NCBI GenBank assembly: GCA_002718585.1
Contig: PBFG01000003.1
Coordinates: 4,192 to 41,923 of the forward strand
Source of the DNA: Fidelibacterota bacterium
Lineage (GTDB): Bacteria; Fidelibacterota; Marinisomatia; SCGC-AAA003-L08; D37C17
Length of the DNA: 37,732 nucleotides
Direction of reading: 5' to 3'
In this document: positions 11,819 through 34,485 of the stretch, piece after piece
Layout of the letters: the number at the start of each line of letters is the position of its first letter
How positions within the stretch are numbered: position 1 is the stretch's first letter
Notes under the pieces: generated by a model
Seen by the model: only the letters and a program-made list of their open reading frames with translations
Databases searched by the model: none
Told to the model about the DNA's origin: nothing
Program-made: the position numbers and the translations under genes

Positions 11819-12679
11819 ATGTCGAAATTTTCAATGAATTTTTTCATGGCTTTAGCAATGTTCAGTTGGGGGGTTGCATGGACAAATGCTAAAATTGTAA
11901 ATGAATATCTATCATTTAATAATTTAATTTTTTTTAGGTTTCTAATTGGTTTTATATCAATATATCCATTAATAATTAAAAATGATATTAAAAAATATTT
12001 TAAGTTTAAAAATTTAAAATTCATAATACCATGTAGCATACTTTTTTATATATATAATTTATTTTTTTTTATGGGTACACATTACTCTTATGCTGGAAAA
12101 GGTGCAGTTTTAGTAACCTCACTGAACCCTATTTTTACTTTTTTTATTATGACAGTAATCGTTAAAAAAATTAATCTTAAAGAAATTTTTGGTATTACTA
12201 TTGGTTTATTAGGCGGTTTAATCATAATGAATGTATTTAATGAAGGTTTTTCAACTATTTTTGATATAAATAATATTTTTTTCCTTTTGTGTGCAATAAC
12301 ATGGGGTATTAATACAGTAATTACAAACTTTGGACAAAAAGATACTCCGCCATTTCATTTCATATTTTTATGTTATTTTTTTACAACAATAATTTCATTC
12401 CCTTTTACAGAGTTTCAATTGATTAATCTTAAAGATTTAGATTTAAAATTTTATTTTAATTTTATGATTGTTTCTCTTGGTGCCATGTCTTTTGGTACAT
12501 CTATGTACTTATATGCAACTCCAAAGCTTGGACCAATAAAAGCAAGTGCTTACATTTTTTCTGTACCTTTTATAGCACTTGTTACTGCAAATATATTTTT
12601 AAATGAACCGATTACTTTAAATATAATTATAGGAGGATTAATCAGTCTTTCGGCAGTTTACCTAATAAATAAAAAATAA
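11819..12679 (+). CDS. DMT-superfamily exporter, EamA family
   Basis: A 286-residue integral membrane protein with about ten hydrophobic helices in two EamA repeats. The first repeat starts MALAMFSWGVAWTNAKI with FFRFLIGF. The second starts at about residue 150 (FFLLCAITWGINTVI) and ends IIIGGLISLSAVYLINKK. Such proteins export amino acids or other small metabolites; the substrate cannot be predicted. The stop TAA abuts the reverse-strand stop of the DUF2779 gene with no spacer. Confidence 0.88.
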   Translation: MSKFSMNFFMALAMFSWGVAWTNAKIVNEYLSFNNLIFFRFLIGFISIYPLIIKNDIKKYFKFKNLKFIIPCSILFYIYNLFFFMGTHYSYAGKGAVLVTSLNPIFTFFIMTVIVKKINLKEIFGITIGLLGGLIIMNVFNEGFSTIFDINNIFFLLCAITWGINTVITNFGQKDTPPFHFIFLCYFFTTIISFPFTEFQLINLKDLDLKFYFNFMIVSLGAMSFGTSMYLYATPKLGPIKASAYIFSVPFIALVTANIFLNEPITLNIIIGGLISLSAVYLINKK

Positions 12680-14587
12680 TTATTTTAAAGAGTTCCAGTG
12701 TTCATAAATCATAACCATTGCCAGAGTATCTAGTTCACAGTATTGCAATAATGCTTTTGTTAAAATATTTCTTTCCTCTTTAGTCATGTCTGTAAATTGA
12801 AGTTTAGAATAAGCTAACATCGCTGCCGCTCCATCTTCTATTTTTTCATCTAAAAAATATAATTGGTCTTTATCAATATTTAAATTTTCATATTTATTTT
12901 CAAGCAATTGGTAAGGATTACAAATTTCATTGGTTTGATCATTAATTTTCCAAAGAGTTTTGTTTTTAAGATGTGTACCAAAGTCTATTTTTTGACTATA
13001 TTTATTTTTTATGTATTTACTATCTGAAAATATTGCTGGAAGAACATATTTAAGAGAATTTGAACCTTTCATTTTAGGATGATAATAGTATTTTTTCACA
13101 TAATCAAGCAGATCAATCATATTTCTATCTCCTACGATTTTATTTTTTGGATTGATAGAACATTTTCTATACGTAATTGTATCAATCCAATCTATTAATT
13201 CTTTGTATTTAGATTCATCTTCTTGAATCATTTGATTTCTTATTTGTTGTAAAACAGTATTTTCATGAGCTGAATAACGAAAAATATTACCATTATCTTT
13301 ATCTAATATCTTTTTCAGTTCTTTCACAAATTGATAATTGGGAAAGTTATTTGCATCATTCTCAATCCATTCATAATGTTTTATTGTTCCATTTTTGAAA
13401 AGTGTATGACATGAAAATTGAAAGGCTATTTGCTCATATGGAGATCTGTTTTTATGGAATGGAACTGCTATCATACATGTTTCAAAATCTATAAAGTGAA
13501 GAGGAAATTTCCATTTTTGTATTTCATTAAATAAATCTGGTTTGATATCTTCGATTAAGGATTTGTTAACTGTCTTTTGAACCTGTAAATATTGTCTTTC
13601 ATTTAAAGTTTCTACAAAACTACTTGCGTAAATATCTTTCATTTTATAAAGGTTAGAATTTATAATTTTTTGTGATTGTCTATAATTCCATATTTCAAAA
13701 ATATTTGGTTCATCTATGTCAAAATTTTCAAAAACTTTGCTCCAACATTGAAAATAACCACTTTTGTCATTATTCATTTTGTCTTTAAACTCACAAGATT
13801 TACACTTCAATCCTAAGTTAGTTTTATAAAATTTATCATCATTATAATATTCGCCATATTCCTTTATTTTATTAATGAAACTTTCATCATTTACCTTTTT
13901 TTTATAGCTACCATCGTAAATCATTTCAACGAAATGACTTACATCAATTTTAATTAAAATCTCATTACCTAAATCATCGTAGTTAATTGTTTTGTTGACA
14001 ATAATTTTTTTTCTATTACCAGTTTTTGTTATTTTGAAAAATTGATTTAAACCATTAATTGAAGTTTTTTTATTTTTATCAGCTAACATTAAATAAGGTT
14101 TAATATTATAATTTGGTAGGGCTCTTTCCATTACCCATAATTGAAATGCTACATCATAAAAGTATGGTATCCAATTTGGTTTAACATAATTTGATTTATT
14201 AAAAAAATTATTTTCTGACTTGTAAGATTTTGCCTTAACTTCAATTAGATCTATATTGTTACCATCCTTAACTAAAATATCTACTCTTATTAAAAAATAG
14301 TTAAACTTGATGGCTGCCTCGTAAATTATAACCTTATCATTATGTAACAATTTGTTAGTTTGTTCTATTGCCTCATCAATATCTAAAGTATCAATGTTGT
14401 AACCATTAGGATGATAGTATTTTGCTAATTCACCTACCTGAAATCCACCTTCTGCTAGAGCTAGTAGGAATTCATCATCATTTTTAGAGTTCGTAAATTG
14501 CTTTTTATTTGTATAGAATAGTTTTGTGGGGCAAGTCAAAGCTAAATTAAATCTACTTTTAGTTAAGTATCGTTTTTTTGCAATCAT
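12680..14587 (-). CDS. DUF2779 protein: Fe-S PD-(D/E)XK nuclease fused to DEDD-type exonuclease domain
   Basis: A 635-residue predicted nuclease. The N-terminal half has a RecB/Cas4-like core: E90, D103 (RVDIL) and E116-V-K118 (IEVKAK). It is bracketed by C19 and the cluster C262-x-x-C265...C281, the four-Cys layout that holds a 4Fe-4S cluster in Cas4 and AddB. The C-terminal half is the DUF2779 domain with RNase-H-fold exonuclease marks: D367-x-E369 (FIDFET), D492 (MIDLLDYV), GSNSLKYVLPAIF, and YCELD (D620) followed by TLAM. No helicase, cas or obvious defence gene is adjacent. A role in DNA repair or defence is inference. It heads the reverse-strand run only by position; the hydrolase upstream ends 11 bases before its ATG. 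Confidence 0.85.
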   Translation of the reverse strand: MIAKKRYLTKSRFNLALTCPTKLFYTNKKQFTNSKNDDEFLLALAEGGFQVGELAKYYHPNGYNIDTLDIDEAIEQTNKLLHNDKVIIYEAAIKFNYFLIRVDILVKDGNNIDLIEVKAKSYKSENNFFNKSNYVKPNWIPYFYDVAFQLWVMERALPNYNIKPYLMLADKNKKTSINGLNQFFKITKTGNRKKIIVNKTINYDDLGNEILIKIDVSHFVEMIYDGSYKKKVNDESFINKIKEYGEYYNDDKFYKTNLGLKCKSCEFKDKMNNDKSGYFQCWSKVFENFDIDEPNIFEIWNYRQSQKIINSNLYKMKDIYASSFVETLNERQYLQVQKTVNKSLIEDIKPDLFNEIQKWKFPLHFIDFETCMIAVPFHKNRSPYEQIAFQFSCHTLFKNGTIKHYEWIENDANNFPNYQFVKELKKILDKDNGNIFRYSAHENTVLQQIRNQMIQEDESKYKELIDWIDTITYRKCSINPKNKIVGDRNMIDLLDYVKKYYYHPKMKGSNSLKYVLPAIFSDSKYIKNKYSQKIDFGTHLKNKTLWKINDQTNEICNPYQLLENKYENLNIDKDQLYFLDEKIEDGAAAMLAYSKLQFTDMTKEERNILTKALLQYCELDTLAMVMIYEHWNSLK

Positions 14588-20519: not shown

Positions 20520-21857
<1,338 letters not shown>

Positions 21858-21860
21858 TTT

Positions 21861-23285
21861 TTGAAATATTTATGTCAATCATTTATATTAATTTTAATTT
21901 CATCAATTTTTCCTAAAGGAATAAACACTCATATCTTTGATGATAGTATTCTAAGGTCTAGACCTTCCTTGGATACCTTTATGGTGTCACAAAGTGGAAA
22001 GTTTTATGTACATTATGATTTATCAGGCCTTGATTCACCAATTTTAGATGATGATAACTTAAATGGTTTACCAGATTACATTGAAGAGGTAGGCATTGCT
22101 GCTGATTACGTTGATAGTATTATTGTTGATATAATGAATTTTTTACCAGTTAATCCAGATGATGATGGTGTTTATGATATTTATGTTGAAGATTTAGGAG
22201 TAGGTTATTACGGAGTAAATAATTTAGACTTTAATTCTTTAGGTGAGCATACAGGTAGCTCTTATATTAAAATTGATAATAAATATGAAGAAAGTGATTA
22301 TTATACAAGTGGTTTAGATGCAATGAAAGTTACTGTAGCTCATGAGTATTTTCATGCAATTCAGAGGTCATATCAACTTCAATTTACTACAGAATCATTA
22401 TTTTTCTTTGAAATGTCATCAACTTGGATTGAGGACATAATTTATCCTAACGTAAACGATTATATTGATTCAGGATGGTTATCTACTTTTTATACTGACC
22501 CAGATAAAGATATAAGAGACACCGATGGATATAGTATTGCGTTATACGCACATTTTTTATCTTCCATTATTGATCAAGATAATAATTATGAAAATTCAAT
22601 TATAAAAAAAGTTTGGGAAGATTTTAGTATTACAAATAATGCATTTTTATCATTGAATAATATTTTATCTAGCCCGGATTATTCAACGACATTTATTGAA
22701 ACATGGTTAGTATTTTTAACGAGAAATTTTTTCAATGGTAAGTATGATGATATGGAAAATGACTTTTATTACTACGAAGATCAAATTTATGCTATGCCCA
22801 TCATCATAAATAATTCTCAAAATTTAGATGATTCAATTTCAGATATTATTTTTTTAAATAATGAATCTATTTCTTTGAGTACATTTGAACCATTCTCAAA
22901 TTTTTTTATTAATATATCGGATTTAAATGAGAATTTTGTTCAAAGTATTATATTAGAGAATAATCAAGGATATCCATCATTATTTAGTTATTCTATTGAA
23001 AGCTCAGACTATTATCATATAGGTGATGATATAAGCAAAATTTATTTAAATATAGGAAGTGAAACAGAAGATGAATTTGAATTATTTTTAGATGTTCTTA
23101 AATATGATTATGGTGATATAAATCAAAATAATTTTATTAATGTTGTAGATATTATTTGTATAGTAAATTATATTTTTAATGATTTAGTTCTAAATGATTT
23201 TCAAATTATTTTGTCTGATTTAAATATTGATAATAATATAGATATTTTAGATGTGATTGAAATTGTAAATATAATTACAGAATAA
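21861..23285 (+). CDS. Secreted zinc metalloprotease (MXAN_6640-like) with C-terminal dockerin-like domain
   Basis: A 474-residue exported protein beginning with TTG three bases after gdhA. The nearby ATG at 21871 is out of frame, and an AGGAG lies about 11 bases upstream. Residues 1-20 form a signal peptide. A DDNLNGLPDYIEE calcium-like loop precedes the catalytic domain. The zinc motif is H161-E-Y-F-H165; a third ligand is probably E184 or E191 in FFFEMSSTWIED, as in the MXAN_6640 family. The last 60 residues have two dockerin-type repeats (GDINQNNFINVVDIICIVNY and SDLNIDNNIDILDVIEIVN). It probably degrades extracellular protein. No cohesin or sorting gene is in the window. Confidence 0.85.
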   Translation: MKYLCQSFILILISSIFPKGINTHIFDDSILRSRPSLDTFMVSQSGKFYVHYDLSGLDSPILDDDNLNGLPDYIEEVGIAADYVDSIIVDIMNFLPVNPDDDGVYDIYVEDLGVGYYGVNNLDFNSLGEHTGSSYIKIDNKYEESDYYTSGLDAMKVTVAHEYFHAIQRSYQLQFTTESLFFFEMSSTWIEDIIYPNVNDYIDSGWLSTFYTDPDKDIRDTDGYSIALYAHFLSSIIDQDNNYENSIIKKVWEDFSITNNAFLSLNNILSSPDYSTTFIETWLVFLTRNFFNGKYDDMENDFYYYEDQIYAMPIIINNSQNLDDSISDIIFLNNESISLSTFEPFSNFFINISDLNENFVQSIILENNQGYPSLFSYSIESSDYYHIGDDISKIYLNIGSETEDEFELFLDVLKYDYGDINQNNFINVVDIICIVNYIFNDLVLNDFQIILSDLNIDNNIDILDVIEIVNIITE

Positions 23286-23307: not shown

Positions 23308-26274
23308 TTATATTCCAGATGCTTCATCTTCATTCATTGTTTCACTTAATTTCTTATGCATAAATATCAATCCATTACCTTTTGTACCATCTACTTGAAT
23401 TATTAAGGGTTCATTTAAACTTACAATATTTACATATTTTGATTTTTTAATATGATTTTGTTTACTTAGCCAATTCCAATCAATATTTTTTTTATAATCT
23501 CGATAGCCTAAAGTAAAATAACTGATCATTAAGCTGGTTAAATTTTGGAAAAAGTGACTTCCAAAAGAAGGGTCTGGGTTTAATTTATCAATTCCAATTT
23601 CAATAATTGATTTTGCATTAGTTATTTGCTCCCAATTTACAGGAATACCTAGCCAAGGATCAGAACTACCCCATCTACCAGGTCCAATTAACAAATAAGG
23701 ATTTTCTGAGCCCAGAATATTATTATACTCGCCAATGACTTTAGCAATTTCTTGAGTTTTATCAATTTTAAAATTATCTAAATTAATATACATAATATTT
23801 TTTATATCTGAATAAGTACCGTTACCTAGAACTTGATTACTTGAACAAAAAATTTTAGATTTATTTTTATCAATGGCTTTTAAATTATTTTCAAAATTAC
23901 TAATTGGCATTGGTTTAATTTGCAATAAACAAAATTCGTCTTCTTTTTTTTCATTTATATTTACAGCAAATTCAATTTCAAATGGACAACCAATTAAATT
24001 TTCACCTTGTTGAATAAACGTATTGAGTAGTTCATTAAGGGGAAATGAATTATATTTAATAATTGATGAAAAAGTTAGAACTCTAACACCTTCATAACTG
24101 AGAGATTCTCTAATAATATTATCTTGATTACTTATTACGCTAGCTGAAACCTTGAGCTCTCCATGAGATTCTGCAAGACTGAGATTATATTTATGTAAGT
24201 TTTTTGATTCCCCTTTTTTTATTACATCAATATTTTTATTTAAATTTAAAGCAAAGAACTTATTTTGAGAATTATTGATAGTAGATTTTGTAGAGTAGTA
24301 TTGGGGTATTATATCAGGGAATTTCGGAGAATACCTTAATGACTTTTCTCCATCTGCAATTGTTTTTCCTAATCCTAAAGCTAAAAATGCAATTCCTTCT
24401 TCTCTTTTCATATGTGATACGGGATAATAATTATAACTTTGGCATACACCACTGAATGTTGGATAGAAAATTTCATCATGTTTTTTGCCAATTAATTCCA
24501 TAATTATTACTGCCATTTTTTCTTCTTCATACCTTTTAGAAACAGAATCCATTAAAGATTTGGGTTCTTTATAGAAAGTTGACGCATAAACTCTTTTAAT
24601 TGCTTCACATAATTGATTATATCTTTTGTCTAAACTTCTATCTGAATTTGGAATCATCAAAGTACTATACATACCTGCTAAAGGTTTATATTGTGAATCT
24701 TCCAATAATCCTGAAGATCTAATGGCTAAAGGATATTTAACTTTTTTCAAAAGAAGTTTTAATTTTTTTGAAAGTTCTTTTGGTAATTTCGATTTGATGA
24801 ATTCTTTTTCAATTATTTCATTATCTATATCTGATAGTGCTTTATCCCATAAATTGTTTTTATCCATGAATTCATCAAATTCTGATGTACTAATAACAAC
24901 TATATTAGGAATTCGAACATTAACATTCGGAAATTGATTTTTAAAATCATAATTTCTTAAAATAGAATTCGCAAAAGCTAGGCCTCTTGCTTTACCTCCC
25001 AATGAACCTGAGCCAATCCTAATAAATGAGTGAGTATATTCAAAATTATCAAAGGAATGGTCAACAATTATGGGATCTTTTTTTTCATCTATTGATTCAT
25101 TTAGTAATTTTAAATGGTAAATTCTTCTATCCTCTATGTTTTTGAAATCATCTAAATCTATAGCTCTAAATTTTGATGCAACATTAAATTCACCTCTAGC
25201 AGCAAGCCAATTGGATAAGTGATTATTTGAAACATGGTATGACAATGATTCTTTAGGGATGTTTCTAATATTATTTTTTAATTCTTTAATATTTTTAGCT
25301 AATCCTATAACATTGCCATTTTTTGTTCTAAATTTAAATTCTCCAAAACCAAAATTATCAATGACAAGTTTTTTTAAATTTTGAAAAAAGGCATTAGAAT
25401 TTTTATTTAAGTATTTTGCAGATAGCTCTTTTAGATCGTCATTTGAAATATTTTCGTTTGTCTGAAAAATAAATGGAATTGACTTATCAAATTTTCTAAC
25501 CTCTTTTATTAGATTTTTACCGGCAAATTTTTCTTTTTTATTATTTATAGGAAATCTCATATCAGAAATTACACCGAGCAAGTTAAGATGATATTTTTTT
25601 ATAAATTTAATTGCTTCTTCGTAATTAGTACATAAAATTATTTTAGGTCTTGCTCTCATATGTAAAAGTTTTTGGGTATCATTTAAACTTTGATTTATTA
25701 ATTCTTTAGTATGATATATAATCTCCCTGTACAGAAAAGGCAACAAGCTTGAATAGTGCTGCGGCGTATCTTCAACAACTAGAATAGACCGTACATCAGC
25801 TTTTCTTGTATCCCTGCTGATATTCTTTTTATCTTCGATTAATTTGATTAAGGCTGGGAAAACATTTGAGTCACCAAACCAAATAAAAACTTGATCAAAC
25901 ATATTTAATTTTTCACGAGGAATTCTTTTAATTTCAGATTCGTCAAATGCTAATAGAATAATTGGTTTTTTAGGGAATTGACTTTTAATTTTACTTCCTA
26001 GATATATTGAATTTATATCTACAATTCTCATCATTATTATAACCAAATCAAACTTACGTTTTGATAACATCTCTAAAGCTTGTTTTCCTGAAGAAACATT
26101 CCAAACTCTAGGAGCATAGCTCAAATTCATTCCAATATATTCTGTTAAAATTTGTTCAGTAAGTTTACCATCTTGTTCAAGAATGTATGCATCGTAAGGG
26201 CTAGAAATTAATAGAATTTCGTGAACCCTGTGAAGCATTAGATCTTGATAATTTATATTTTTTTCATTTACCAT
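23308..26274 (-). CDS. REC-REC-PPDK_N protein: receiver domains fused to PEP synthase-like ATP-grasp domain
   Basis: A 988-residue cytoplasmic protein. Residues 18-150 form a receiver-like fold that has lost its acidic pocket (SS in place of the acidic pair, M81 at the usual phospho-Asp place). Residues 162-305 form a second receiver that looks intact: E168-D169, D238 in VISDMRFP, T272, K291. Residues 420-790 are the PEP synthase/PPDK ATP-binding domain (SLGGKARGLAF, AIRSSGLLED, AGMYST, FEIEFAVN, LLQIKPM). The phospho-His swivelling domain and the PEP-binding barrel of PpsA/PpdK are absent. They are replaced by a region near 850-950 with LIGPGRWGSSDPWLG and PSFGSHFFQNL. Its first 11 bases overlap the upstream phosphatase gene. 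Function unknown; a phosphotransfer or signalling role is inference. Confidence 0.82.
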   Translation of the reverse strand: MVNEKNINYQDLMLHRVHEILLISSPYDAYILEQDGKLTEQILTEYIGMNLSYAPRVWNVSSGKQALEMLSKRKFDLVIIMMRIVDINSIYLGSKIKSQFPKKPIILLAFDESEIKRIPREKLNMFDQVFIWFGDSNVFPALIKLIEDKKNISRDTRKADVRSILVVEDTPQHYSSLLPFLYREIIYHTKELINQSLNDTQKLLHMRARPKIILCTNYEEAIKFIKKYHLNLLGVISDMRFPINNKKEKFAGKNLIKEVRKFDKSIPFIFQTNENISNDDLKELSAKYLNKNSNAFFQNLKKLVIDNFGFGEFKFRTKNGNVIGLAKNIKELKNNIRNIPKESLSYHVSNNHLSNWLAARGEFNVASKFRAIDLDDFKNIEDRRIYHLKLLNESIDEKKDPIIVDHSFDNFEYTHSFIRIGSGSLGGKARGLAFANSILRNYDFKNQFPNVNVRIPNIVVISTSEFDEFMDKNNLWDKALSDIDNEIIEKEFIKSKLPKELSKKLKLLLKKVKYPLAIRSSGLLEDSQYKPLAGMYSTLMIPNSDRSLDKRYNQLCEAIKRVYASTFYKEPKSLMDSVSKRYEEEKMAVIIMELIGKKHDEIFYPTFSGVCQSYNYYPVSHMKREEGIAFLALGLGKTIADGEKSLRYSPKFPDIIPQYYSTKSTINNSQNKFFALNLNKNIDVIKKGESKNLHKYNLSLAESHGELKVSASVISNQDNIIRESLSYEGVRVLTFSSIIKYNSFPLNELLNTFIQQGENLIGCPFEIEFAVNINEKKEDEFCLLQIKPMPISNFENNLKAIDKNKSKIFCSSNQVLGNGTYSDIKNIMYINLDNFKIDKTQEIAKVIGEYNNILGSENPYLLIGPGRWGSSDPWLGIPVNWEQITNAKSIIEIGIDKLNPDPSFGSHFFQNLTSLMISYFTLGYRDYKKNIDWNWLSKQNHIKKSKYVNIVSLNEPLIIQVDGTKGNGLIFMHKKLSETMNEDEASGI

Positions 26275-26956
26275 AATAATCTTCTAAAAATATTAAACTA
26301 TCGGTTAAACTATTTGAAATGAAATCTGCATTTTTGTTTAATCTTTTACGATTAATATTTTCCACATGTTGGATAAATAGTGAAGCTTCGCCATATTTTT
26401 TTAATTCATAATCTGTATATCCATCACCTATTATAATTTTTTCACCTTCAATTTGCTGAGCAACTTTTATTTTTCCTAAATCTTTTGATAATGGATTATC
26501 TTTATTAATTGAATAAATTTCTTTTTTTTCATTAAATAAAAAATTATTAGCAAAAATATTTTTTTTTGAAAAATTATATTTTGATAAAACTGGTTCTATA
26601 ATATCAGTAAAACCTCCAGAAATAATATAACAGTTTTCGCAATTTTTTTCAAAAAACCTCTTATTTTCGTAAAAACTTAAGGATATTTCTTTTTTTATTT
26701 TTTCTACAGATTTATTAATATGGTTTTTATTTGCTTTGATTAATTTTATTCTTTTTGATAACGCATCACCAAATGATATTTCCCCATTCATTGCTAAATC
26801 TGTTAATTTTTTTATTTTTGATATAACTTTATTTTTATTTTTATTTTGTGCTAAAGATATATCTGATATAATTTCTAGAGACTCAGATTTTATGAATGTG
26901 CTATCAAAATCTATAAGAAGTTTTATGTTATATTTTTTTAAATCTAAGTTTTCCAT
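26264..26956 (-). CDS. HAD-family phosphatase (phosphoserine phosphatase-like)
   Basis: A 230-residue cytoplasmic HAD hydrolase. Motif I is D16-F-D18-S-T20, motif II S113 (IISGGFTDII), motif III K162 (LGKIKVAQQI) and motif IV GDGYTD (D178, D182). An all-helical cap lies between motifs I and II, as in SerB. The TGA stop lies inside the start of the REC-REC-PPDK_N gene (11-base overlap), so the two are translationally coupled. Substrate could be phosphoserine or a phosphorylated partner product; the coupling makes a link to the downstream protein more likely than to serine synthesis, but this is inference. Confidence 0.87.
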   Translation of the reverse strand: MENLDLKKYNIKLLIDFDSTFIKSESLEIISDISLAQNKNKNKVISKIKKLTDLAMNGEISFGDALSKRIKLIKANKNHINKSVEKIKKEISLSFYENKRFFEKNCENCYIISGGFTDIIEPVLSKYNFSKKNIFANNFLFNEKKEIYSINKDNPLSKDLGKIKVAQQIEGEKIIIGDGYTDYELKKYGEASLFIQHVENINRKRLNKNADFISNSLTDSLIFLEDYYGK

Positions 26957-27083: not shown

Positions 27084-30000
27084 ATGCAATTAATATTTAA
27101 GATTTTTTTAATATGTTCAGTAGGATTAGCAGAAAAAACAAATTTTCAGCTTAAAAATAGTAACTCTCAAAATACAATGATTGAGTTTAATTTAGGTGAT
27201 ATTTCTTTTGAAAGAAAAGAAGGCTATCACGTTATTTCAGGTTCAGAGGGAAATACTAGAGATGTGGGACTACCAGAACTTCCTACATACACATTCAATT
27301 ATTCCATAGATTATAATTACGACTATGAAGTATCTTTGAATGAAAATGATTTTACCCTGTATGAAAATATTGATTTATATCCATCACAACCTATTTATAA
27401 TGTTAATCAAGAGAAGACTTTTATTAAAAATAACCTAATCTATAGCAAAGATGAAGTTTACCCAGAAACAAAAATAAGTTTTAAAAGATCATCAATTAGA
27501 GGTTATGATTTGCTAACGATAGAGTTAACTCCATATGAGTATAATCCTAAAACTAAGCAATTAAAAGTCTTTAATAATTTAGAAGTTGTTATATCAGAAT
27601 TAAATTTAAGAACTACTATTTCCAATAGAACTCCAAGATCTAGAGTATTTGAAAATATTTATCAAAATAGCGTTATTAATAGCAATGACTATCAAGATTC
27701 TAGAAGTTTCCAAAAACCTTCAGTTTTATATATATGTGGTGGAAATATTGCTTCATCACCTTACTTAAATCCACTTGTTGAATGGAGGCATAAACAGGGT
27801 TATGTAGTAAATGTAGTTTCGACTTCTCAAACAGGTAGCAATACTACGGATATTAAAAATTACATTACAAATGCATATAATAATTGGCAAAATCCACCTG
27901 AACATGTGTGTTTGATTGGTGATGCTAATGGCAGTATTAATGTTCCTACGTACACAGTTTATGGTGGTAACGGTTGGTCATCAGCTCAAGGTGAGGGTGA
28001 TCATCCCTATACTTTGGTTGAGGGTAATGATTTATTACCAGATTTATCTATAGGAAGAATTTCTATTAGAAGTACAACTGAATTAATTACAGCTATAAAC
28101 AAGATAATAGGTTATGAAAAAAATTATTCAGGTGAAACGGATTGGTTAAATAGAATGGCTTTAGTTGGAGATCCATCAGACTCAGGCATATCTACAATAA
28201 TTACTAATCAATACATTGAGCAAATTGCAGAAACTCATGGTGGCATAACTGATATTGAAACACAATATGGTGGTAGTAATTACGATGATTTTATGGTTAA
28301 TCAAATAAATCAAGGTGTTGCATATTTAAACTACAGAGGATTTTATGGTTTTAGTAATTTTACTAATAATGATGTTGCACAGTTAAATAATGGTTACAGA
28401 TTATCTTTTATTTCTACGATTACATGTGGAACCGGTTCTTTTGCAACTGAAACTACTTGCATGACAGAATCGTTATATAGAGCAGGTACGTCGGTTAGTC
28501 CTAAAGGTGCTGTTGCGGTAGTTGGTACAGCTCAATCTTATACTCATACTGCATTTAATAATATTGTAAATATGGGTATTTTTGATGGTATTTTTCTTCA
28601 TGAATCACTTACAGCTGGAGAAGCACATATTTATGGAAAATTAGCTATTGATGAAATTTATCCACAAAATCCAAATGATAACGTTTATTTATTTCAGACA
28701 TGGAATAACTTACTTGGTGATCCATCTTTGCAATTATGGACATCTTCACCTCAGAATATGGTTGTACAACATAATCAAATGGTGATAAATGGTTCTGATA
28801 ATTTTCAAGTATCAGTTACATCAGAATCAGGAAATCCTATTGAAGGTGCAATTGTAACCCTATCAACTGATTATCATTCCTTTGGAGGAATATTAGAATC
28901 TCAATATACTAATGTCAATGGAATCGCTGATTTCAATTTGCCATCTACAATGAACTCTGGCAATATAAATGTAACATCTAGAAAACAAAATTATATACCT
29001 GATGAATCTTTCTTTATATATTCTAACGATTTACCTCAGGTAAGCTTAAATCAATCAAGCGTAAGTATTAATGATTATGATGGTAATGGCAATGAAGTCT
29101 TAAATCCTGGAGAGACTGCAAGTTTATCTTTACAGATTGAAAATATATCTGGTTCTGCTATAGATGGAGCAATAGTCGCTAGTATAGTTTCAGAATCTAA
29201 TTATATTTCTCTATCGAATAATGAAAATATAAATTTAGGTAATTTTACAACTAATAGTAATAGTCTAACATTTGATAATATTACTATTACGGCATCAAAT
29301 AATATTACAGATTTAGATGACCCGATGCTGAGGTTGACAGTATTTTCTACTTCAGATGATTTACTATGGAATTACATTGTTCCCCTAAACTTTAGCTCAG
29401 CTATACTTGATTTTTCTTATAATTTAGATTCTCAATTAACTGTTGGTGGTAATAGTCAAGTTTCTCTTTCAATCAATAATACTGGTTCAATGTCACTAAA
29501 CAATGCTATTGCAGAAATAGGCTTAGGAAATGACTTACTAGAATTTGATTCAAATCAATTTTTATTTAATTATATTGGACAAAATCAATCTGCTTTATCA
29601 GATAATCAAATTGTATTTTCAGCTTCAACAGATTTAATTAATGGTTCAGTAATACCAGTATCAATTAATTTAACATCTGATAGTGGATTTGAAATGCAAT
29701 CTATTTTATCTGTGCAAGTTGGAAATGTTACACTAAATGACCCTGTAGGTCCAGATTTGCATGGATATTATATTTATGATATGGGAGATACTGGATATCA
29801 ACTTGCTCCTGAATATGATTGGATTGAAATAGATCCTGATTTTGGTGGAGAAGGTGAAGAACTAGACATAAATGATGGTGGAGATAATTTAGATGATGTC
29901 ACAACCATATCATTACCTTTTACATTTACTTTTTATGGTATTGACTATAATGAAGTTTCGGTTTGTTCAAATGGATGGATCTCATTTGGCGAAACAGATA

Positions 30001-31586
30001 TGACTTCTTTTAGAAATTACACTTTACCTGGCCCTGGAGGACCTTCTCCAATTGTAGCAGTTTTTTGGGATGATTTAAAGACTACCAATGGTGGAGAGAT
30101 ATATGCTTTTCATGATGAGCAAAATAATTCTTTTATCATAGAATGGTCAAATCTTAGAACATTTATTTCAAATACTACAGAAGCTTTTCAGATAATCCTA
30201 TATGATACTGGTAATGAAACACCAACGGGTGATGATGAAATGAAATTACAATACAAAGAATTTAATAATAATAGTATTGGAGATTATCCAGTTGGAAACT
30301 ATGATGGTGCTGTTATTCATGGACAATATTGTACTGTTGGTATTGAAAATCATTCTGGAGATGATGGGTTACAATACACCTTTAATAATTCTTATGCAAA
30401 TGGTGCTAGAACATTAACAGATCAATCAGCTCTTTTTATTACAACTAGAGGTTCTATACCTTATGCTTTACCACAAGTTTCATATAATCAGCAACAGTTT
30501 ACTTTTAACGTTCCTCTGAATGAATCTGATGCAGAAAATCTAATCATAACAAATTCAGGTGAGATAGGTTCAAATTTAGCTTATGAAGTTAGTTCAGCTC
30601 CTTATCCTGTTAGTTCAAATCAAATTGATTCATATGGATATGCATATGTAGATTCAGATACAGCACAAAATATTATAGATTATAATTGGATTGATATCAG
30701 TGATGAAAACACAGTTTTAGAATTTGAAAATAATGATACTGCTGTTCAAATTGATATGGGATTTGAATTTCCTTTTTATTCAGAAAGTTTTTCTCAATGT
30801 TTAATTAATCCTAATGGATGGATAGGTTTTGAGGAAGATAATAATGGATGGAATAATCAGTCATTATTTGATGAAGATACACCAAATGGTTCAATTTTTG
30901 GATTTTGGGATGACTTGAATCCAGCTAATAGCGGTAATGAAGTAGGTTCGGGTGAGGTTAAGTATCATACTAATAGTCAACGTCTGGTAGTATGGTTTGA
31001 TAATGTTATTCATTGGACAAATGTCGATAGAATATATAATTTCCAAATTGTTATAAATAATAATGGTTTAATTCAACTTAATTATTCCAATATGATTGGA
31101 GATACAGAATCTGCAACAGTTGGAATAAAATCACCTGATGGCTTGAATGGTTTGCAGATCGTTTATAATGACAGTTACATAAATGATAATTTATCAGTTG
31201 AATTTAATACTGCAAATTGGCTTTCTGTAGATTTTGTTTCAGGTAACGACCAACTTACAGATGGTACATCTGCAATATATGCTATAAATGTTAACACGAC
31301 TGGTATGGAAGAAGGCACATATAATGCTTATGTGATTAATAATACTAATGCATCAGTAAATTTTGATGCTATACCAGTAACATTAAATACTCAAGGCAGT
31401 TTTTTGATTGGAGATTTAAATCAGGATAGCGTTTTAGATATCATAGATGTCGTCAGTTTAGTATCAATAATCATGGGTAATGTAGATACAACAAGTTTAG
31501 ATCAATTAGTTGGAGATTTAAATGGTGATGCGTTCTTGAATGTTCAAGATATTATATTGTTAGTTGGAATTATTTTGAGTAACTAA
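27084..31586 (+). CDS. Secreted C25 (gingipain)-like protein, 1500 aa, with dockerin-like C-terminus
   Basis: Signal peptide (residues 1-16), a propeptide_C25-like region to about 200, then the C25 fold at about 211-560 (KPSVLYICGG, CLIGDANG, DLLPDLSIGRISI, LLGDPSLQLW). The catalytic Cys is probably C448 (STITCGTGSF), but the His of the gingipain GHG motif is replaced: NYRGFYG at 416-422 has F420 there. After it come an Ig-like domain (about 565-640), CARDB-like beta repeats to about 890, two related modules (about 893-1110 and 1172-1375, each with SNGW/PNGW and FWDD), and a dockerin pair at about 1440-1500 (GDLNQDSVLDIIDVVSLV, GDLNGDAFLNVQDIILLV). AGGAG precedes the ATG by 6 bases. Either an altered protease or a non-catalytic adhesin. 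Confidence 0.85.
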   Translation: MQLIFKIFLICSVGLAEKTNFQLKNSNSQNTMIEFNLGDISFERKEGYHVISGSEGNTRDVGLPELPTYTFNYSIDYNYDYEVSLNENDFTLYENIDLYPSQPIYNVNQEKTFIKNNLIYSKDEVYPETKISFKRSSIRGYDLLTIELTPYEYNPKTKQLKVFNNLEVVISELNLRTTISNRTPRSRVFENIYQNSVINSNDYQDSRSFQKPSVLYICGGNIASSPYLNPLVEWRHKQGYVVNVVSTSQTGSNTTDIKNYITNAYNNWQNPPEHVCLIGDANGSINVPTYTVYGGNGWSSAQGEGDHPYTLVEGNDLLPDLSIGRISIRSTTELITAINKIIGYEKNYSGETDWLNRMALVGDPSDSGISTIITNQYIEQIAETHGGITDIETQYGGSNYDDFMVNQINQGVAYLNYRGFYGFSNFTNNDVAQLNNGYRLSFISTITCGTGSFATETTCMTESLYRAGTSVSPKGAVAVVGTAQSYTHTAFNNIVNMGIFDGIFLHESLTAGEAHIYGKLAIDEIYPQNPNDNVYLFQTWNNLLGDPSLQLWTSSPQNMVVQHNQMVINGSDNFQVSVTSESGNPIEGAIVTLSTDYHSFGGILESQYTNVNGIADFNLPSTMNSGNINVTSRKQNYIPDESFFIYSNDLPQVSLNQSSVSINDYDGNGNEVLNPGETASLSLQIENISGSAIDGAIVASIVSESNYISLSNNENINLGNFTTNSNSLTFDNITITASNNITDLDDPMLRLTVFSTSDDLLWNYIVPLNFSSAILDFSYNLDSQLTVGGNSQVSLSINNTGSMSLNNAIAEIGLGNDLLEFDSNQFLFNYIGQNQSALSDNQIVFSASTDLINGSVIPVSINLTSDSGFEMQSILSVQVGNVTLNDPVGPDLHGYYIYDMGDTGYQLAPEYDWIEIDPDFGGEGEELDINDGGDNLDDVTTISLPFTFTFYGIDYNEVSVCSNGWISFGETDMTSFRNYTLPGPGGPSPIVAVFWDDLKTTNGGEIYAFHDEQNNSFIIEWSNLRTFISNTTEAFQIILYDTGNETPTGDDEMKLQYKEFNNNSIGDYPVGNYDGAVIHGQYCTVGIENHSGDDGLQYTFNNSYANGARTLTDQSALFITTRGSIPYALPQVSYNQQQFTFNVPLNESDAENLIITNSGEIGSNLAYEVSSAPYPVSSNQIDSYGYAYVDSDTAQNIIDYNWIDISDENTVLEFENNDTAVQIDMGFEFPFYSESFSQCLINPNGWIGFEEDNNGWNNQSLFDEDTPNGSIFGFWDDLNPANSGNEVGSGEVKYHTNSQRLVVWFDNVIHWTNVDRIYNFQIVINNNGLIQLNYSNMIGDTESATVGIKSPDGLNGLQIVYNDSYINDNLSVEFNTANWLSVDFVSGNDQLTDGTSAIYAINVNTTGMEEGTYNAYVINNTNASVNFDAIPVTLNTQGSFLIGDLNQDSVLDIIDVVSLVSIIMGNVDTTSLDQLVGDLNGDAFLNVQDIILLVGIILSN

Positions 31587-31593
31587 ATTTTTT

Positions 31594-32988
31594 TTAAAGT
31601 TCTTTTAGGTCTGATAATAATTTAATCAACATATCTTTTGCATCACCAAATACCATAATTGAATTATCATATCCAAACAATTCGTTTTGAACCCCAGCAA
31701 AACCAGTATTCATAGTACGTTTATTAATAATTACTGTTCTAGCTTTATCAACATTTAAAATAGGCATACCATAAATTGGACTTGATTTATCTGATCTTGC
31801 TGCTGGATTTACAACATCATTTGCACCCAAAACAATAGCAACGTCACAATCTTCAAATTCTGGGTTTATTTCATCTAAATCTTTAAGTTGCTCGTATGGG
31901 ATATTAGCTTCGGCTAGTAGAACATTCATATGGCCAGGCATTCTGCCAGCTACTGGATGAATTGCATATAATACATTTTTACCTTTATCTTCGAGGAACT
32001 CAGCAACTTCTCTAATTGCGTGCTGTGCCTGAGCTACAGCTAAACCATATCCAGGAACAACAATTATTTTTTCTGCAGCATCAAAAATCATAGCTGCTTC
32101 TTCTGTAGAATAACTCTTAATATTAACTTGTTTCCCATCGTTAGATCCACTTTCTATTTCACCACCAACAGCCCCAAAGATTACATTTGAAAGTGAGCGA
32201 TTCATACCTTTACACATTATTTGAGTAAGGATCATACCAGATGCTCCAACTAAACTACCACATATAATAAGAGCATTACCCGCTGATGGATTATTTGATA
32301 CCAAAACAAAACCCGTCATAGCAGCCGCAATACCTGAATATGAGTTAAGAAGTGAAATCACAACTGGCATATCAGCACCACCTATAGGAATAACTAAGAA
32401 TATACCTAGTAATCCAGCTAAGATAATAATAGTGTATAGTGAATTAATACCATAGTTTGGAATCATATAAGATGCGACAATTATAAATAAAGCTAAGACT
32501 CCATTAAAAAGCTGTTGTCCTGGAAAAGTTATAGGCTTTGTTGAAATTAGGCCTTGAAGCTTACCAAATGCAATGAAGCTTCCCGTTAATGTTAATGTAC
32601 CTATTAATACGCTAAGTGAAACTGAAATTATTAAAATTAGTGATGGATCAAATGAGGGGTTAACTAAGCTTTCACTACCTAAAAATTCCGATGATGCAAC
32701 TAAGGCTGAAGCACCTCCACCAAAACCATTAAATATTGCAACTAGTTGAGGCATTTGGGTCATCTCAACTTTAATTGCAAAGAATGCTCCAATGATTGAA
32801 CCTATTATCATTGCAATTGCTATCATTTTTAAATCTAAGTCAGTACCTGTGTATACAGTTGCTACTATAGCAATTAACATCCCAATGGAAGCAGTAATAT
32901 TTCCATTTCTTGCAGTTTTTGGATGACTTAGCATTTTAAGTCCGTAAATAAAACAAATCGCTGATATTAAATAAGATATATCCTTCAT
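31594..32988 (-). CDS. pntB: NAD(P) transhydrogenase subunit beta
   Basis: A 464-residue inner-membrane subunit carrying the proton channel and the NADP(H)-binding domain III. The N-terminal half holds about nine helices. Domain III shows VPGYGLAVAQAQHA, HPVAGRMPGHMNVLLAEA, GANDVVNPAA and NKRTMNTGFAGVQN. The ATG abuts the pntAB stop (TAG-ATG) in frame, with AAAGGAAA as Shine-Dalgarno. With PntAA and PntAB it couples proton entry to NADPH formation, which would supply the NADP-type glutamate dehydrogenase among others. Normal length. Confidence 0.96.
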   Translation of the reverse strand: MKDISYLISAICFIYGLKMLSHPKTARNGNITASIGMLIAIVATVYTGTDLDLKMIAIAMIIGSIIGAFFAIKVEMTQMPQLVAIFNGFGGGASALVASSEFLGSESLVNPSFDPSLILIISVSLSVLIGTLTLTGSFIAFGKLQGLISTKPITFPGQQLFNGVLALFIIVASYMIPNYGINSLYTIIILAGLLGIFLVIPIGGADMPVVISLLNSYSGIAAAMTGFVLVSNNPSAGNALIICGSLVGASGMILTQIMCKGMNRSLSNVIFGAVGGEIESGSNDGKQVNIKSYSTEEAAMIFDAAEKIIVVPGYGLAVAQAQHAIREVAEFLEDKGKNVLYAIHPVAGRMPGHMNVLLAEANIPYEQLKDLDEINPEFEDCDVAIVLGANDVVNPAARSDKSSPIYGMPILNVDKARTVIINKRTMNTGFAGVQNELFGYDNSIMVFGDAKDMLIKLLSDLKEL

Positions 32989-33258
32989 CTATTTCCTTTT
33001 AAACATTTTTAACATTCTATCCGTAACCATAAATCCTCCCACAACATTTATCATAGCAAAGATTACTGATGCAAAACCAAGCCACATGCCTAAATCACCT
33101 TTGAAATTTGTAGCTAAAACAGCCCCAATGATTGCAATTCCTGAAATTGCATTTGAACCAGACATAAGAGGTGTGTGTAGTGTCGGTGGAACTTTTGTTA
33201 TTATCTCAAAACCCACAAAAACAGCTAAAATAAAAATAGTTATAGTTGTAATATCCAT
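32989..33258 (-). CDS. pntAB: NAD(P) transhydrogenase subunit alpha part 2
   Basis: An 89-residue membrane subunit equal to the C-terminal membrane part of E. coli PntA. Three hydrophobic helices contain VPPTLHTPLMSGSNAISGI, the conserved stretch of this family. It is a separate gene, as in three-subunit transhydrogenases. The ATG abuts the pntAA stop (TAA-ATG); AAGGAG lies 9 bases upstream inside pntAA. Confidence 0.95.
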   Translation of the reverse strand: MDITTITIFILAVFVGFEIITKVPPTLHTPLMSGSNAISGIAIIGAVLATNFKGDLGMWLGFASVIFAMINVVGGFMVTDRMLKMFKRK

Positions 33259-34398
33259 TTATTTTTGCTCCTTTTCTAAAAATTTGCTTAGAATCTCATT
33301 GTTAACTTCTCCGTTATTAAGAATAAGAGAACCGTTTGTTATTTCATCTTCAAGATTTAGTGGATTTTCACCATTGTATATGTGATTGAAAAGATTGAAT
33401 AGATTTTTCGCATAAAGTTGGCTTGCATCTTGTGCCATTGTACTTGGCAAATATGATCTACCATCTATAATGACATCTTTATGACTGATTATATCATCAC
33501 ATTTTGTGAGTTCGCAATTTCCACCATTAACTGCGGCTAAATCAATTATGGCAGAACCAGGCTGCATACTTTCAACCATTTCTTTGCTAATTAAAATAGG
33601 AGCGGGTTTCTCAGGTATTAATGCAGTAGAAATTATAATATCCATACTTTTAATAGTTTCATTAATTAATTCAGCTTGTTTTTGTTTGTAATCATCAGAT
33701 ACTTCTTTAGCATATCCACCTTCTCCAACACCTTCATCAGAATCACTTTCTACTTCTATAAAATTTGCTCCTAAACTTTCAACTTGTTCTTTAACAATAG
33801 GCCTAACATCAAATGCATAAACTTGAGCACCCATTCTTTTAGCATTAGCAATTGCAGCTAAACCAGCAACTCCTGCACCTAATATTAAAACTTTTGAAGG
33901 CTTAATTGTACCAGCTGCAGTCATCAATAATGGCATATATTTAGAAATATGATCAGCACCTATAATAGTTGCCTTATAGCCTGCAATATTACTTTGTGAA
34001 CTTAATGCATCCATATTTTGTGCTAAAGTAGTTCTTGGAACGTGGCTCATAGATAGAATAGATAATTTACTATTAATGTAATAGGGAATGTTTTTAACTT
34101 CATCTTTTATTTGAAAAAATGAAACAACAGTTGAGTTGCTTTTAATTTGCTTAATTTCGTTTTCACTAGGAGGATTTACTTTAAAAAGAATATCACTTCC
34201 CTTTAAAACTTCTGCAGGGGATTCTACAATTTTTGCACCAGCATTTTTATATAATGAATCGCTATAAAAAGATTTATCTCCAGAACCTGATTCAATTATA
34301 ACTGAGTGTTCATATTTTAATAACTTTTTTACTATTTCTGGAGTTATTGGAACTCTAGATTCGTATTTTTGAACTTCTTTAATAATTCCGATTATCAT
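33259..34398 (-). CDS. pntAA: NAD(P) transhydrogenase subunit alpha part 1
   Basis: A 379-residue cytoplasmic NAD(H)-binding subunit (domain I). It begins MIIGIIKEVQKYESRVPITP, the family N-terminus; an upstream in-frame ATG at 34473 would add 25 unusual residues, so I use 34398. The Rossmann motif is GAGVAGLAAIANAKRMGA with D at AFDVRP. The gene leads a pntAA-pntAB-pntB operon with zero-gap junctions. No Shine-Dalgarno is seen; a 16-bp palindrome sits 4 bases before the start. Confidence 0.94.
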   Translation of the reverse strand: MIIGIIKEVQKYESRVPITPEIVKKLLKYEHSVIIESGSGDKSFYSDSLYKNAGAKIVESPAEVLKGSDILFKVNPPSENEIKQIKSNSTVVSFFQIKDEVKNIPYYINSKLSILSMSHVPRTTLAQNMDALSSQSNIAGYKATIIGADHISKYMPLLMTAAGTIKPSKVLILGAGVAGLAAIANAKRMGAQVYAFDVRPIVKEQVESLGANFIEVESDSDEGVGEGGYAKEVSDDYKQKQAELINETIKSMDIIISTALIPEKPAPILISKEMVESMQPGSAIIDLAAVNGGNCELTKCDDIISHKDVIIDGRSYLPSTMAQDASQLYAKNLFNLFNHIYNGENPLNLEDEITNGSLILNNGEVNNEILSKFLEKEQK

Positions 34399-34402
34399 TT
34401 TT

Positions 34403-34418
34403 AACAAATTAATTTGTT
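34403..34418. promoter_or_regulatory. 16-bp perfect palindrome upstream of pntAA
   Basis: AACAAATTAATTTGTT is a perfect inverted repeat lying 4 bases before the pntAA ATG and between divergent genes. A related, imperfect element occurs at 34441-34454 (ACAAATTGTTTTAA). It could be an operator; it is all A/T apart from one G and one C, so chance occurrence in this AT-rich DNA is possible. Confidence 0.35.
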
Positions 34419-34485
34419 TTAACAGACGTAAATTTACAATACAAATTGTTTTAAATAAAAAGTAATAATACATATAATATATAAA

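Follow-up and report, generated by a model that had tools for sequence, protein, structure and literature searches.

What does a protein do that joins two receivers to the ATP-grasp domain of phosphoenolpyruvate (PEP) synthase and lacks the domains with which that enzyme completes its chemistry? The question is raised by a gene in a 37,732-nucleotide stretch of a Fidelibacterota bacterium genome (assembly GCA_002718585.1, contig PBFG01000003.1, positions 4,192 to 41,923 of the forward strand), which was analysed as a whole, is called the window here and supplies the coordinates below. The gene (23308..26274, minus strand) was established from the open reading frame (ORF) call, Pfam, orthologues and an AlphaFold2 model, and encodes a 988-amino-acid protein, termed here the REC-PPDK_N protein, which consists of a degenerate receiver (REC1), an intact receiver (REC2), a linker, a PPDK_N ATP-grasp domain and a C-terminal domain with a GPGRWGS motif. 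We find it to be a conserved variant member of the PEP-synthase ATP-grasp family, with no characterised function, that is linked to glutamate dehydrogenase (GDH), and that this link is very probably functional. In Bacteroidota, dominant gut bacteria among them, GDH, which joins ammonia to carbon, is one of the main routes by which ammonia is assimilated, and to our knowledge the control of its activity in this group is poorly known. A receiver and ATP-grasp protein that stays with GDH through genome rearrangement provides a named, testable candidate for such control.

Linkage to glutamate dehydrogenase within the phylum

In the window, gdhA (20520..21857, plus strand), which encodes a family-I NADP-type GDH (771 bits against NCBIfam PRK09414), lies two genes away from the REC-PPDK_N gene, and had not been picked up in the original prediction for this locus, made from the sequence alone. 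Searches of 20-kb neighbourhoods with the window genes (tblastn) placed gdhA beside the REC-PPDK_N gene in most lineages. The gene between the two in the window, for a putative MXAN_6640-type metalloprotease (21861..23285, plus strand; 137.3 bits, cut-off 140), was seen in this position only in genera g1 and g7. Linkage was counted from whole-phylum searches for both proteins, with genome G007 added from the searches of relatives: family-I gdhA lay within ~4.5 kb on the same contig in 91 of the 117 genomes with both genes, and in 40 of 56 genera. In 89 of these 91 linked genomes the genes were tail-to-tail, often with a gap of less than 100 bp. When all genes within 5 kb of the REC-PPDK_N gene were clustered without preselection (32 loci, 18 families), GDH was present at 20 loci and in 13 families, while every other cluster reached at most 4 of the 18 families.

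Other arrangements of the same two genes were also found. They are head-to-head in genus g51, and in family f21 a single gdhA is flanked by two REC-PPDK_N paralogues, one convergent and one divergent (L127:6681-14442 in G072; also G080 and G107). A count by genus, tallied by hand from the phylum-wide searches, gave 58 genera with both the full-length protein and family-I GDH, 1 with the protein only, 3 with GDH only and 14 with neither (Fisher p = 1.4e-11, uncorrected for phylogeny); the cases of GDH without the protein belong to family f6 and genera g4 and g55. The REC-PPDK_N protein thus nearly always implies GDH, and GDH does not need the protein. GDH sites that separate carriers from non-carriers were few, and all of them go with a single lineage (W391 in carriers and in G005, Leu in f6), a pattern that is not interpretable.

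Two further observations concern these neighbourhoods. In G007, gdhA beside the REC-PPDK_N gene is broken by an apparent frameshift (L069, ~11821-13150), and the REC-PPDK_N protein of this genome is the most diverged of its family (43% identity); the split gene and the diverged protein could reflect an assembly error or joint decay. A gene resembling alanine dehydrogenase/PNT, another ammonia-linked amino-acid dehydrogenase, is a neighbour of the REC-PPDK_N gene in two families, f16 and f21 (L093:11064-12158; ~3.3 kb away in L087).

Shorter homologues accompany a second GDH class

The full-length protein and family-I GDH are both absent from family f4 and genus g39. There, the gene for a 773-residue protein with the PPDK_N and GPGRWGS domains comes immediately after, and on the same strand as, that for a different class of GDH, ~32% identical to the GDH of the window (10 of 10 genomes). 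A pair of homologues of 585 and 1063 residues follows this second GDH class in 7 of 9 cases; the contigs of the two remaining matches do not carry that GDH. Families f16 and f20 have the second-class GDH gene, then that for the 585-residue protein and then that for the 1063-residue protein, the last two overlapping or nearly so; in family f12 the pair stands at a contig end. Such triplets, all on one strand, were read at L118:571-6926, L119:5440-11684, L120:6489-12753, L121:4022-10286, L122:3898-10161 and L125:2975-9243.

The 1063-residue protein carries, in addition to PPDK_N and GPGRWGS domains, a C-terminal nucleotidyltransferase domain (NTP_transf_2); its first 150 residues match parts of other large ORFs in the phylum. 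A FastTree phylogeny of the ATP-grasp and C-terminal parts resolved two groups, one of the receiver-bearing and 585-residue types and one of the 773- and 1063-residue types, with the internal position of the 585-residue type poorly supported. The pairing with GDH recurs independently with a second GDH class.

Domain anatomy of the REC-PPDK_N protein

The 988-residue gene is taken as real because full-length orthologues occur in relatives, across the phylum and in Bacteroidales. The search of relatives yielded 38 genomes with a full-length copy, the source genome counted, with identities of 43-95% in the 37 relatives; phylum-wide, orthologues reach down to 36% identity. One near-identical locus was found in a single-protein contig search (metagenome-assembled genome SAT24 184664, 95% identity over the protein), and no relatives were found in viral contigs.

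The original prediction had described one degenerate and one apparently intact receiver, and residue counts in 33 orthologues agree. REC1 (residues ~17-150; 25825..26226, minus strand) is matched by Pfam Response_reg at residues 36-127 (8e-9) and has no Asp at its phosphosite in any of the 33, positions 81-83 reading M/L/T-x-R/H. REC2 (residues ~160-308; 25351..25797, minus strand), delimited by residue counts, the model and fold searches, has the residues expected of a receiver: D169 in 32 of 33, and the phospho-acceptor D238 and K291 in all 33. The linker that follows (residues ~309-418; 25021..25350, minus strand) is matched partially and weakly by DUF5752 (PF19027; 25.4 bits, cut-off 23), as it is throughout the phylum. 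Stand-alone DUF5752 proteins (ORFs of 225-245 residues, 218-260 bits) were seen in families f16 and f19 (L052, L053 and L054), with an architecture unlike that of the window protein.

The predicted PEP synthase-type ATP-grasp domain was confirmed by a PPDK_N match well above the cut-off (PF01326; 1.5e-34, 120 bits, cut-off 27) at residues 424-803 (23866..25005, minus strand), with the nucleotide-site residues retained: K428, R519, E768 and Q785 are present in all 33 orthologues, with R or K at position 787. Likewise, the absence of phospho-His and PEP domains held up, as neither PEP-utilisers nor the PEP_synthase C domain gave a Pfam match in the protein, which stops ~185 residues past the ATP-grasp domain, and the PEP/pyruvate TIM barrel of PEP synthase and PPDK was not matched. 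An AlphaFold2 model of all 988 residues had a mean predicted local distance difference test (pLDDT) score of 83. Foldseek with this model returned rifampin phosphotransferase (5hv3, E 2e-12) as the best match, over 422 alignment columns of 846 target residues, and the kinase HpeI (9goj) as the second; PPDK (1kbl) and the receivers of other proteins were listed too.

A C-terminal domain restricted to the family

The conserved C-terminal region to which the original prediction drew attention (residues ~806-975; 23350..23859, minus strand) is a real domain limited to the family of this protein, the shorter homologues included. Modelled alone, it gave a pLDDT of 84.6 and a predicted template modelling score of 0.82. 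Its signature is the motif GPGRWGSSDPWLG (residues 864-876; 23647..23685, minus strand), identified by alignment and residue counts, in which G866, W868, D872 and G876 are invariant in the 33 orthologues, as is F908 further on; R867 and H907 are present in 32 of 33, the remaining one having an unreadable letter. H907, within GSHFFQN (codon 23554..23556, minus strand), is among the residues that are at least 97% conserved over 60 sequences of all architectures, together with K428, R519, E768, Q785, G866, R867, W868, G869, E892, S903, G905 and F908. Looking for the domain elsewhere, as had been proposed, a profile search of 100 genomes found it only in ORFs of four PPDK_N architectures or in short, apparently contig-cut ORFs.

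That the region might be a known PEP-utilising domain found no support: Pfam gave no useful match, the PDB sequences no convincing one, Foldseek no PDB fold at E <= 0.001, and profile comparison (hhalign) with five canonical PEP-synthase-type His domains a probability below 1%. By eye, the order of motifs (GPGRWG...DPWLGIPVxW...GSHFF...VDGxxG) looks like that of a His domain, and hhalign, when forced to align the two, pairs these parts. We do not claim that the region is a divergent His domain of the PEP-utiliser kind, given the hhalign probability and the lack of a Foldseek match.

Bacteroidales orthologues and a trans-acting factor

Full-length orthologues with 37-40% identity occur in Prevotella, Parabacteroides and Phocaeicola; in the Phocaeicola orthologue the REC2-type receiver has only a below-cut-off Pfam score. 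The orthologues of Parabacteroides distasonis and Phocaeicola massiliensis each stand head-to-head with one gdhA and have a second gdhA on their other side. A RefSeq entry from Bacteroidales (WP_041525632.1, 'PEP/pyruvate-binding domain-containing protein') is a full-length orthologue with 39% identity that adjoins gdhA; it is annotated by its ATP-grasp domain alone, and the record states neither a function nor a link to GDH.

By its title, a study of Bacteroides thetaiotaomicron reports trans-acting gene(s) downstream of gdhA that affect GDH activity (Baggio and Morrison 1996, as listed among the references of PMC4539542). The likeness to the present family, as far as that title goes, lies in gene(s) near gdhA that act on GDH in trans. 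The REC-PPDK_N family may be a candidate for this factor, to which we give somewhat less than an even chance because neither of the two Bacteroidales loci read has the orthologue immediately downstream of a gdhA. A downstream segment of ~3 kb reportedly restored GDH activity in E. coli, a size that would suit a gene of ~2.95 kb.

A candidate regulator of GDH

How might such a protein act on GDH? An even chance is given to the protein being an ATP-dependent, receiver-gated regulator dedicated to GDH. A histidine kinase encoded outside the window would pass phosphate to REC2; searches of the window found no histidine kinase, and that kinase is therefore encoded elsewhere. Phosphorylated REC2 would then gate the ATP-grasp domain, which would use ATP, most likely through a phosphoryl intermediate handled by the C-terminal domain (His907, Arg867 and Glu892). 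As a result GDH, the presumed target, would be switched on or off; the most likely means are covalent modification of GDH and ATP-driven remodelling of its hexamer. Three features favour a regulator over a metabolic enzyme: the protein has receivers, one homologue has a nucleotidyltransferase domain, and the family pairs with two classes of GDH. Nucleotidyltransferase domains of this type are known from the nitrogen-control modifiers GlnD and GlnE, and GarA/OdhI-type proteins are regulators of GDH. The likeness to GlnE/GlnD, to which the 1063-residue homologue adds NTP_transf_2, and to GarA/OdhI lies in post-translational control of an ammonia-assimilation enzyme and is one of working only; the window protein, unlike them, has no nucleotidyltransferase or FHA domain.

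Several points weigh against a dedicated regulator of GDH. GDH occurs without the REC-PPDK_N protein in the small-genome family f6 (16 genomes) and in G005, and the protein is therefore not universally required. The two genes are on different contigs in 26 genomes, including all those sampled of g5, f3 and g48, and much of the family-I linkage could stem from one ancestral arrangement; moreover, genes lying tail-to-tail are not co-transcribed. In Bacteroidales, the Parabacteroides and Phocaeicola orthologues lie upstream of one gdhA and at a distance of 3.5-4.1 kb past the second, and that of Prevotella oral taxon 299 is unlinked, ~0.8 Mb from gdhA. Finally, homology of the C-terminal domain to His domains is not demonstrable with hhalign or Foldseek, and any biochemical activity of the protein is predicted.

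The strongest alternative, which we consider unlikely, is a receiver-regulated metabolic kinase or dikinase that acts on a small molecule near GDH (glutamate, 2-oxoglutarate or a derivative), the genes being linked through a shared pathway. PPDK_N relatives mostly phosphorylate small molecules, rifampin phosphotransferase is the best fold match, with HpeI and PPDK also listed, and the catalytic ATP-grasp residues are retained. With PEP synthase/PPDK and rifampin phosphotransferase, the window protein shares the PPDK_N ATP-grasp domain with its Lys, Arg, Glu and Gln, and 5hv3 and 1kbl are among its best fold matches. Unlike PEP synthase and PPDK, it has receivers and the GPGRWGS domain and lacks the PEP-utiliser His domain and the PEP/pyruvate TIM barrel, and unlike rifampin phosphotransferase it has no His or rifampin-binding domain in Pfam searches; its match to PRK06241 (29.5 bits) is far under the cut-off of 883. 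Phenylphosphate synthase subunits are split PEP-synthase-like kinases, and kinases of this type and of the HpeI type work with separate subunits on aromatic substrates. The split kinase HpeI (9goj) is similar in that its ATP-grasp half is on a polypeptide without a full PEP synthase, but differs from the window protein, which has fused receivers and GDH as its partner gene. Against a small-molecule kinase, the PEP-utilising and His domains with which the known chemistry is completed are missing, the receivers of one type and the nucleotidyltransferase domain of another resemble control proteins, and two homologues stand together with one GDH.

Less probable again is that the protein binds ATP and activates or assembles GDH while transferring no phosphoryl group, its binding to the hexamer being set by bound ATP and the state of REC2. 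This would be consistent with the persistent pairing with GDH, the absence of a detectable His domain and the trans-acting control of GDH activity reported in the 1996 title; the conservation of catalytic residues in the ATP-grasp domain and of a charged triad in the C-terminal domain, on the other hand, exceeds the needs of binding alone. Genomic hitch-hiking, in which an old adjacency to GDH is neutral, is very improbable: the phylum could have inherited the tail-to-tail order from its ancestor, but no other neighbour is kept comparably, and the linkage outlasts inversion, gene duplication and a switch to another GDH class.

The original prediction had coupled the protein to the product of the neighbouring gene (26264..26956, minus strand), a 230-residue HAD-IB phosphatase, and their overlap is real (11 bp, same strand). 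This lineage-restricted neighbour, assigned from NCBIfam, PDB and neighbourhood comparisons, is SerB-like: it passes the HAD-IB subfamily model TIGR01488 (52.7 bits, cut-off 45), stays under the cut-off of the SerB model TIGR00338 (62.6 bits, cut-off 144) and has the phosphoserine phosphohydrolase-like protein 3kd3 as its closest PDB match (1e-25). Serine biosynthesis is the simpler role for it, because it is SerB-like and the sole such match in the genome. It adjoins the REC-PPDK_N gene in 8 of the 38 full-length carriers, all from genera g1, g6 and g7 of one family, and in 0 of 21 outside that family; in the other 30 carriers it is elsewhere or not detected. Such a lack of conserved adjacency is what the original prediction had named as its own refutation. 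A kinase/phosphatase pair acting on an unknown acceptor, which the overlap and the adjacency in three genera might suggest, is accordingly largely refuted and scarcely credible. Separately, in G005, which has no REC-PPDK_N gene, the HAD gene is directly tail-to-tail with gdhA (L126:6094-8165), which suggests loss of an intervening REC-PPDK_N gene.

Returning to regulation of GDH, a wider proposal would be that GPGRWGS/His ATP-grasp proteins, receiver-gated or paired with a nucleotidyltransferase, covalently switch GDH in both Bacteroidota and Marinisomatota and explain the Bacteroides trans-acting factor; as a whole this is doubtful. If true, it would define a new class of post-translational GDH control. 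Even without this wider claim, a role of the REC-PPDK_N protein in GDH control would carry the PEP-synthase domain family beyond metabolism into regulation and give a function to the GPGRWGS domain, so far without a known family or fold. A literature search for a link between PPDK_N and GDH, for DUF5752 and for receiver-PPDK fusions found nothing relevant.

Other genes in the window

Positions 27084-31586 encode a 1500-residue protein with gingipain-type Peptidase_C25 and Propeptide_C25 domains, the C-terminal repeat of which is dockerin-like by eye. Positions 31594-34473 encode a split NAD(P) transhydrogenase composed of PntB (464 residues) and PntA (404 residues), the latter with a match confined to the first 366 of the model's 510 positions.

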